A stretch of 64,000 bases of DNA from Arthrobacter sp. NicSoilB4 (GTDB lineage: Bacteria; Actinomycetota; Actinomycetes; Actinomycetales; Micrococcaceae), in contig NZ_AP024653.1 of assembly GCF_019977335.1 (NCBI RefSeq), forward strand, positions 62,001 through 126,000. The letters run 5' to 3'. Under the pieces are notes generated by a model. It saw only the letters and a program-made list of their open reading frames with translations, searched no databases and was not told the origin of the DNA. The translations under genes were made by a program, and so were the position numbers. This document shows positions 31,682 to 34,368 of the stretch, in pieces (position 1 is the first letter of the stretch; each line of letters starts with the position of its first letter).

Positions 31682-31772
31682 TGTGGGATCAATGGTATGG
31701 TGGAAATCACAACAGAGTCAATAGGTTCCCGGCCAAAACCGCCGGATGGGCCGCTGGGGAAGGGGAGATCCG

Positions 31773-32444
31773 TTGAGCGCAGGACACCTTATGCCGGCAG
31801 CCGAGGAGGGGGAGATCTCCCTGGCCGAGGCGGCCTACCGCCAACTGCGGGACAAGCTGATCATGCTTGAGATCAAGCCCGGCGCCCCGATCAACGACGG
31901 CCAGCTGGCCACTGAACTTGGGGTGGGCCGGACTCCCGTCCGGGAGGCCATCAAGCGCCTCGAGGTTGACCATCTGGTTGTTTCATACCCGCGCCGGGGA
32001 ACGTTCGCCACCATCGTTGACATCACGGAACTCGCGGATGTCTCGGACATCCGCGAGCTGCTGGAACCGCTGGCGGCCCGCCGCGCCGCAACGAACGCCA
32101 GCTCGGAAATGCGCGAGGAGCTCCGGGAGGTCGCCCGGGCCATCTCCGGTCTCGATGCCACACCACGCGACAAGCGCGAGCTCATGCGCTACGACCTCAC
32201 CGTGCACCGGCTGATCTACCGCGCCGCGGGCAATCCCCACCTGGAAGACACCCTGATCCGCTACGACAACCTCGCCACGCGGATCTGGTGCCTGGTGCTG
32301 GACAAGCTCCCCTCGGTGGCGGGACACATCACCGAACACGTCGGGCTGCTTGAGGCAGTCGCCGACGGCGACGCTGATCTTGCCGCAAAGCTTGCCCTCG
32401 AGCACGTCTCAAGCTTCGAGAAAAGCGTCCGGCAGGTTCTCTAG
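31773..32444 (+). CDS. GntR family regulator, FadR/VanR (FCD) type
   Basis: 223 residues. The winged helix is LAEAAYRQLRDKLIMLEIKP, GAPINDGQLATELGVGRTPV and REAIKRLEVDHLVV; the C-terminal all-helical FCD domain contains DISDIRELLEPLAAR-type and LMRYDLTVHRLIYRAAGNPH segments whose Asp and His residues usually hold a metal. It is divergent from glyA and probably controls the sarcosine operon. TTG was chosen because AAGGGGAG lies 5 nt upstream; ATG at 31791 is the alternative. Confidence 0.85.
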   Translation: MSAGHLMPAAEEGEISLAEAAYRQLRDKLIMLEIKPGAPINDGQLATELGVGRTPVREAIKRLEVDHLVVSYPRRGTFATIVDITELADVSDIRELLEPLAARRAATNASSEMREELREVARAISGLDATPRDKRELMRYDLTVHRLIYRAAGNPHLEDTLIRYDNLATRIWCLVLDKLPSVAGHITEHVGLLEAVADGDADLAAKLALEHVSSFEKSVRQVL

Positions 32445-32490: not shown

Positions 32491-32601
32491 TCATCTTTTC
32501 TTCCAGCGCTTCGGCCACTTCACGTTCATCAGGAGCAATCCGAACAGGAGCGCGTCGATTGTCATGATTCCCGCCATCAGGTAGGCCCACCCGATCATCA
32601 T
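32491..32601 (-). CDS. Candidate 36-residue single-span membrane protein
   Basis: An open frame of 36 codons starts at ATGATG. Residues 1-26 form a hydrophobic helix (begins MMIGWAYLMAGIMTIDALLF) with one buried aspartate at position 16; residues 27-36 are a tryptophan- and lysine-rich cationic tail (VKWPKRWKKR). Third codon positions are mostly G or C, as in real genes here. The start overlaps the stop of an 18-codon frame (32598-32654) by the coupling pattern ATGA. I do not recognise a family; its shape resembles small accessory subunits of transporters or membrane enzymes. Confidence 0.5.
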   Translation of the reverse strand: MMIGWAYLMAGIMTIDALLFGLLLMNVKWPKRWKKR

Positions 32602-32654
32602 GGCCTGCCCGCCGTCGGGTGGCCGGAACTGTGTGTGCCTACCAGAATGCGCAT
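32598..32654 (-). CDS. Candidate 18-residue leader peptide
   Basis: ATG preceded by AGGAGA at good spacing, coding MRILVGTHSSGHPTAGRP, then TGA overlapping the ATG of the 36-codon gene. The strong ribosome binding site belongs to this frame, while the downstream frame has only a weak one, so translation of the membrane peptide would depend on it. Coding bias is moderate. Confidence 0.35.
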   Translation of the reverse strand: MRILVGTHSSGHPTAGRP

Positions 32655-32907
32655 GGCGATCTCCTGACGTGGATCCCCCCAGTCACTCGATAGTCCACTA
32701 AGTGTGCCACTGTGCCTCCCCTGGGGGGAACGGCGGCGCCCGCTGGCCCAAGCTTTTTCCAAGCCGGCCTCAGGCGTCGCATTATGTGCAACAAAGTAAC
32801 ACCTTAAGCAACGACTCGTCGGCAGTCCGCCCGGCCGCCTTTCGGCGCCTGTTCCCCTCCACGACTTCTGTGTGCGCGAGAAAATCACGCCAAGAAAACA
32901 AAGGCCA

Positions 32908-33013: not shown

Positions 33014-34270
33014 ATGACTATCACCACCTCGGGCAACGCCTCGTCCATCGCCGAACTGGAGCGTCTGAAAGTCCTGCACAACGGCCAGAAGGAAAAGCTG
33101 ACCTTTTCCAGCGCCGAATTTGAGCGCCGGCTCGGCGGGCTGCGCCGGATCATGGCAGAGAAGGACCTGGACGCCGTCGTCCTGACCAGCTACCACTCCA
33201 TCAAGTACTACTCCGACTTCCTCTTCACCTATTTCGGCCGGTCCTACGCCATGGTGGTCACCAAGGATGACACCGTGACCGTCACGGCCAATATCGACGC
33301 CGGCATGCCGTGGCGCCGCAGCTACGGCGACAACGTGGTCTACACGGACTGGCGCCGGGACAACTACATCTTCGCCATCCAGGAGGCGCTGCGCACCCGC
33401 GGCATCAGCCCGCGCCGGCTGGGCGTCGAAGACGATTCCCTCCCGCTCGACAACCGGAACAAGATCCAGGCGGCGTTTGCCTCGGCCACCCTGGTGGACG
33501 TGGCCCAGGCCGCCATGCGCCAGCGGATGATCAAGTCGGCCGAGGAGATCGAGGTGATCAAGCACGGAGCCCGCATCGGAGACCTCGGCGGCGAGGCCAT
33601 CCGCAACGCCATCACCGCCGGCATCACCGAATACGAGGTCGCCCTGATCGGCACCGAAGCCATGGTCCACGAGATCGCCCGGACCTTCCCGGACTCGGAA
33701 ATCCGCGACACCTGGGTGTGGTTCCAGTCCGGCATCAACACCGACGGCGCCCACAACTGGGCCACCACCCGGAAGATCCAGGAACACGACATCCTGTCCC
33801 TGAACTGCTTCCCCATGACCTCCGGGTACTACACCGCCCTGGAGCGCACCCTGTTCTACGGCGAACCCGACGCCCGCTCCCTGGAGCTGTGGAACATCAA
33901 CGTGGAGGTCCACAAGCGCGGCCTCGAGCTCATCAAGCCGGGGGCCGTCTGCAAGGACATCGCCGCCGAGCTGAACGAGATCTACGTGGGCCACGGACTG
34001 CTCGCCAACCGGACGTTCGGCTACGGACACTCCTTCGGCGTCCTGAGCCACTACTACGGCCGCGAAGCCGGACTGGAACTCCGCGAGGACATCGACACCG
34101 TTCTCGAGCCTGGCATGGTGGTCTCCATGGAACCCATGATCACGGTCCTGGACGGCCAGCCGGGAGCCGGAGGCTACCGCGAGCACGACATCCTGGTGGT
34201 TGGTGAGGACGGGGCCGAGAACATCACGAAGTTCCCGTTCGGCCCGGAATACAACATCGTGGGCGCCTGA
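33014..34270 (+). CDS. Creatinase (creatine amidinohydrolase)
   Basis: 418 residues of the pita-bread (M24) fold. It follows the well-known Pseudomonas creatinase closely: LTSYHSIKYYSDFLFTYFGR, ANIDAGMPWRRSYGDNVVYT, DTWVWFQSGINTDGAHN with the catalytic-region histidine, SLNCFPMTSGYYTALERTLF, YGHSFGVLSHYYGREAGLEL and YREHDILVV. The metal ligands of true M24 aminopeptidases are not conserved, as in creatinase. It splits creatine into sarcosine and urea, feeding the sox operon across the GntR gene. A terminator follows at once. Confidence 0.93.
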   Translation: MTITTSGNASSIAELERLKVLHNGQKEKLTFSSAEFERRLGGLRRIMAEKDLDAVVLTSYHSIKYYSDFLFTYFGRSYAMVVTKDDTVTVTANIDAGMPWRRSYGDNVVYTDWRRDNYIFAIQEALRTRGISPRRLGVEDDSLPLDNRNKIQAAFASATLVDVAQAAMRQRMIKSAEEIEVIKHGARIGDLGGEAIRNAITAGITEYEVALIGTEAMVHEIARTFPDSEIRDTWVWFQSGINTDGAHNWATTRKIQEHDILSLNCFPMTSGYYTALERTLFYGEPDARSLELWNINVEVHKRGLELIKPGAVCKDIAAELNEIYVGHGLLANRTFGYGHSFGVLSHYYGREAGLELREDIDTVLEPGMVVSMEPMITVLDGQPGAGGYREHDILVVGEDGAENITKFPFGPEYNIVGA

Positions 34271-34305
34271 CCGTCCCACGCCCGCCCGAAAGGGACGAAC
34301 ACCAG

Positions 34306-34338
34306 AAGCGGCGCCACGTCCACCGTGGCGCCGCTTTT
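34306..34338 (+). terminator. Terminator after creatinase
   Basis: Perfect 13-bp stem (AAGCGGCGCCACG at 34306-34318, complement at 34324-34336), 5-nt loop and TTTT. Confidence 0.9.
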
Positions 34339-34368
34339 CGGCCCTCATGCGGAATGATGGGAACCACC

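Follow-up and report, generated by a model that had tools for sequence, protein, structure and literature searches.

The window, i.e., the whole 64,000-nucleotide stretch of DNA analyzed here, contains a 569 bp gap between the end of a GntR-family regulator gene (32444) and the start of a creatinase gene (33014). This gap holds two small overlapping frames on the minus strand, preceded by a series of conserved blocks:

31746–32444, plus strand: GntR-family regulator gene, convergent with the two frames and the usual downstream neighbor in leader-type genomes.
32491–32601 (stop included), minus strand: gene for a 36-residue, predicted single-pass membrane protein, conserved in 134/206 genus genomes, with its Asp in 129/129 and a dN/dS of 0.11–0.21.
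32598–32654, minus strand: 18-codon leader ORF, its TGA overlapping the membrane protein's ATG (ATGA); overlap in 49/50 leader-type loci, lengths shifting by threes.
32659–32668, minus strand: ribosome-binding site of the leader, GTCAGGAGAT, its positions invariant in 127–128 of 128 aligned loci.
32675–32691, minus strand: conserved 5′ block ATCGAGTGACTGGGGGG, from the alignment; a single occurrence in each of 5 genomes inspected.
32702–32709, minus strand: conserved block TGGCACAC (TGSCACAC in relatives), from the alignment.
32727–32731, minus strand: GTTCC, the most distal conserved block, 15–20 bp before TGSCACAC.
33014–34270, plus strand: creatinase gene, divergent and an occasional neighbor (13/132 loci).

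A preliminary description of this DNA had noted two tiny frames overlapping by ATGA opposite creatinase, the first with the strong ribosome-binding site, and coordinates, minus strand, overlap, and difference in site strength were all borne out. The first frame, i.e., the leader, encodes MRILVGTHSSGHPTAGRP, then TGA, and an AGGAG ribosome-binding site (GGAG core) lies six bases 5′ of its ATG, whereas the second frame, translated as MMIGWAYLMAGIMTIDALLFGLLLMNVKWPKRWKKR, is preceded in the window by weak purine runs and a weak ribosome-binding site only. Overall, 132 loci were examined, of which 50 (including the window) were leader-type and about 75 leaderless.

Judged from sequence comparisons, 32491–32601 (minus strand) is almost certainly a genuine protein-coding gene. 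A tblastn search with its 36 residues matched 24 of the 37 genus genomes searched at E values of 9e-6 or better, and a profile built from 16 members recovered the family in 134 of the 206 genus genomes, with one copy each and never multiple copies. Outside the genus, the profile identified one solid homologue in another genus of the same family (E = 1.8e-12), and matches in other families or phyla were judged to be due to chance because they were short matches within large frames. We evaluated selection on the protein gene through disjoint pairs of loci: pN/pS was 0.21 for 17 leader-type pairs (synonymous excess P = 2e-21) and 0.11 for 37 leaderless pairs (synonymous excess P = 2e-83), i.e., the protein was at least as constrained in leaderless as in leader-type loci. 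Taken together, these comparisons establish a predicted membrane microprotein that is essentially genus-restricted, single-copy, and under purifying selection. The preliminary description had proposed an unlisted membrane protein of one transmembrane helix with a buried Asp, and had named a lack of conservation, or frame breaks in close relatives, as outcomes that would speak against it. Both were examined, and tblastn, profile, and purifying selection favored the gene; the observation is confirmed, and stronger than first stated. The gene-like third positions noted at the same time are found in the 36-residue frame but not in the leader. The protein matched no family in NCBIfam and none above cut-off in Pfam (with a sub-threshold GST_C_6 match alone), and matches were likewise absent from solved structures and from a plasmid collection. 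It is a new small family within a known kind, the single-pass membrane microproteins, and a previously unlisted one in a genus that has been well sequenced.

A single membrane span with the C-terminus inside is predicted for this protein. Its best 19-residue hydropathy window scored 1.98 and included Asp16, and this membrane Asp was invariant in all 129 copies having the core. Five residues never varied across 96 unique cores: G, W, and Y where the helix begins, the mid-helix Asp, and the first Trp of the tail. Conserved positions fell on no single clear helix face: a one-sided face was not significant, and a small-residue face was suggestive without reaching significance (P = 0.06–0.10). Because Lys/Arg-rich tails stay inside according to the positive-inside rule, the N-terminus would face outward and the Lys/Arg/Trp tail inward after insertion. 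That the mid-helix acidic residue of a one-helix protein never varies would in turn point to a specific contact with another membrane protein. Based on this Asp and on analogy, we propose that the protein is probably a small partner that assists or modulates a membrane protein encoded at another locus, which it would contact through the helix carrying the Asp.

CydX, KdpF, and MetS exemplify the small accessory subunits of membrane complexes, which are ~30–60 residues long with one helix; CydX also has a conserved acidic residue. The protein described here is like these subunits in size class and single helix, and has the acidic residue in common with CydX, but differs in having no NCBIfam match, no Pfam match above cut-off, and no constant adjoining partner gene. 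In particular, the CydX/YbgT profile (PF08173) was not matched in the Pfam scan, nor was any curated NCBIfam or Pfam model of known small transporter subunits (e.g., MetS). The gene is also not encoded with cydAB (in genome G000, cydA lies at C1:1595463 vs C1:94494 for the 36-residue gene), and cytochrome bd was uninformative as a candidate partner since its subunit I was found in 203/204 genomes, with or without the 36-residue gene.

The gene is preceded by its own conserved ~75-bp upstream element, with a near-identical order across the 132 loci: GTTCC, 15–20 bases, TGSCACAC, ATCGAKTGRCTGGGGG, and GTCAGGAGAT (128 loci were included in the element alignment). The GTTCC block is possibly a promoter element. 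In the ~75 leaderless loci, translation of the protein begins directly from the GTCAGGAGAT site, which usually adds a few residues at the N-terminus, while in the 50 leader-type loci the start codon at the same position opens the leader instead. No further element site was found beyond one per genome in five genomes, and a scan of 84,980 species genomes detected the element in Arthrobacter, Pseudarthrobacter, and a Micrococcaceae genome; four additional matches in unrelated organisms did not precede such a gene. A candidate hairpin beside the ribosome-binding site was rejected given its weak energy and near absence of covariation, the latter because the bases hardly vary. An Rfam search of the window from 30 to 39 kb yielded no family near the gene at E ≤ 1, a search that novel RNAs would escape. 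Elsewhere in the window, a CcsR1-like RNA match that fell short of the gathering score (27.9 vs 65.3 bits) was observed at 34262–34339 (plus strand), overlapping the end of creatinase and the following gap.

Next to this element, the leader combined a conserved architecture with an unconserved peptide. Leaders were mostly 17–19 codons long, and the leader TGA overlaps the later start codon of the protein, either ATG or GTG. This stop-start overlap, on the same strand, was found in 49/50 leader-type loci, the exception (L148) having its leader stop ~ten bases before the protein start. Counted from its ATG up to the Gly-Trp codon, the leader measured 59, 62, 65, or 86, values equal modulo 3, with a single exception of 61, whereas non-coding spacers in the element measured 26, 27, 29, 30, 31, 32, or 33, i.e., lengths regardless of threes. 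The leader peptide displayed pN/pS ratios of 1.0–1.1 in wide comparisons and 1.39 in disjoint pairs, and no conserved run of codons was found across leader-type loci. Since length changes come in steps of three and the overlap is kept while the peptide is not conserved, frame and overlap appear to be under selection, and the peptide does not. Of the interior codons, GTG at position 16 varies least; the GGTG(A) that it forms would fit a ribosome-binding site of the protein gene.

From these patterns, we consider translational coupling through termination-reinitiation to be the likely role of the leader. Specifically, ribosomes recruited at the strong GGAG site would translate the leader as far as its TGA, terminate there, and reinitiate on the overlapping start with the help of a weak GGTGA site present in many copies, so that the leader would serve as a coupling or translation entry device whose own peptide is irrelevant. 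The conserved architecture supports the membrane protein coupled to a leader that had initially been put forward; the accompanying suggestion of a regulatory peptide did not hold, as the leader peptide has a dN/dS of about 1.0–1.4 and shows no sign of a regulatory role. Published ATGA gene pairs are translationally coupled by termination-reinitiation (PMC6728339, PMC10666635). As far as these accounts go, the pair described here is similar in its overlapping stop and start codons, its single strand, and its stronger ribosome-binding site on the first frame, but differs in that the first frame is without a selected product and missing in over half of the family, and in that its site and start align with the direct protein start of relatives.

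Alternatively, the leader may be incidental, with the protein starting independently at its own weak GGTGA-type site and the overlap being historical. A weak GGTGA is indeed found upstream of the protein start in many copies, and two loci (L183 and L184) that have lost the leader start carry a strong GGAGGTG-type site directly before the protein gene. We nonetheless regard this as improbable, since frame and overlap survive several length changes in 49/50 loci while non-coding spacers drift, and since the protein's own site is weak in the window.

Slightly less probable still is the reading of the protein as a membrane peptide akin to type I toxins. Here, the leader would act as mok does for hok, the small hydrophobic protein would damage the membrane when overproduced, and an antisense RNA or mRNA fold would restrain its expression. 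Hok is a type I toxin, a small one-helix membrane protein, and mok its overlapping upstream frame. The protein described here resembles this system in size, single helix, charged aromatic tail, and a translation that would depend on the overlapping upstream frame, and a small RNA could bind to its 5′ region, which is strongly conserved. Unlike hok/mok, however, the gene is a single chromosomal copy, never multi-copy and without a match in the plasmid collection, and the leader is missing in most relatives. In addition, the protein gene is under strong purifying selection, and no antisense RNA or antitoxin RNA was found nearby among the known Rfam families.

The leader could also be a regulatory peptide acting by attenuation or arrest, sensing a metabolite or the translation state and thereby gating the membrane protein. 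In favor of this, the leader is short, has a strong ribosome-binding site, lies just upstream, and is kept in 50 genomes. This is very unlikely given a peptide evolving at a dN/dS of about 1.0–1.4 with no conserved codon run, a GTG at position 16 (its most constant interior codon) that is explained by the GGTGA ribosome-binding site, and ~75 relatives that do without a leader. With ~50 leader-type and ~75 leaderless orthologues sharing one ribosome-binding site, what a leader does can here be told apart from what its peptide does, and the case cautions that a conserved upstream ORF need not be a sensing peptide.

Genomic neighborhoods differed between the two types of loci. In leader-type genomes, the usual convergent neighbor was a GntR-glyA-sarcosine oxidase block (GntR nearby in 32/50), and the upstream side was variable, including creatinase, hexulose-phosphate synthase-type genes, IclR, and transporters. 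In leaderless genomes, the gene was usually located 3′ of a small WPGDRL protein gene (62 loci) and convergent with a GNAT gene. Creatinase was within ~6.5 kb in the 13/132 loci, and near none of the leaderless loci. The fixed position beside creatinase that had been anticipated was not observed, the family's fixed neighbors being the GntR or the GNAT gene instead. In the window, the gene diverges from creatinase, and a gene for an NCS1-type permease lies ~4 kb further on. This arrangement fits the initial suggestion that the membrane protein belongs to the permease of the creatinine block as a small subunit, or regulates the breakdown of creatinine. That suggestion is nevertheless highly improbable and largely contradicted already by the distribution, the protein being equally or more constrained where creatinase is absent. 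A tiny gene should accordingly not be assigned to a pathway that it merely adjoins.

Leaderless loci also adjoin a cassette of a response-regulator phosphatase, a cellulose-synthase-like protein, a STAS protein, and a kinase. At L030:10676-14494 and equivalents, this cassette encodes a response-regulator/SpoIIE phosphatase, a cellulose-synthase-like glycosyltransferase, a STAS protein, and a HATPase kinase, and looks like a regulated exopolysaccharide synthase. It was rejected as a partner because the glycosyltransferase occurs both with and without the 36-residue gene: it is found in many genomes lacking the gene and absent from many having it. Creatinase, the neighboring permease, and the glycosyltransferase cassette are not obligatory partners.

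The WPGDRL protein, encoded upstream in L030, L034, and other leaderless loci, is ~90 residues long with an invariant motif and no Pfam family. It was detected in 93/204 genomes, and all 93 also encode the 36-residue protein, while 41 genomes have the 36-residue gene only and 70 have neither. The two genes are far apart in about 20 of these 93 genomes, and no constant operon partner of the WPGDRL gene was found where it is apart from the 36-residue gene. This nested gene content is the best functional lead, albeit one inflated by genome relatedness. For the chain as a whole, i.e., a gene with its own upstream element, translated through leader coupling, inserted in the predicted topology, and contacting a partner encoded elsewhere through its Asp-carrying helix, we estimate a probability of roughly 0.5.

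To place these patterns in an evolutionary context, we used an rpoB tree (67 genomes, 1848 bases). Leaderless copies were found on deep branches (G177, G172), while leader copies occurred in several places and the tips were mixed. On this tree, the gain of a leader probably postdates the family root, and later loss or exchange would account for the mixture. The 36-residue gene itself was absent at about seven separate places in the sampled tree, i.e., at least about seven losses, indicating that the gene is dispensable in some settings. One genome, G028 (L357, minus strand, ~base 1356 of the reverse complement), displayed an orphan element and leader at the GntR locus with no protein gene, and the retention of both shows a true loss at the homologous site.

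Overall, we tentatively suggest that the family may use two interchangeable expression formats, one initiating directly and one through a neutral leader, both from the same site, under a dedicated regulatory 5′ element, for a buried-Asp modulator of a genus-wide membrane complex, although this fuller reading is rather doubtful. If true, the two formats would provide a natural record of translational coupling arising and being lost. A brief literature check matched no described case of a direct start alternating with a neutral leader on one ribosome-binding site. Finally, several genomes without the 36-residue gene carry short imperfect repeat arrays, such as CTCTCTCACGTCCCGCGTGCTTGGGCG, just 3′ of the GntR stop (L360-L373).
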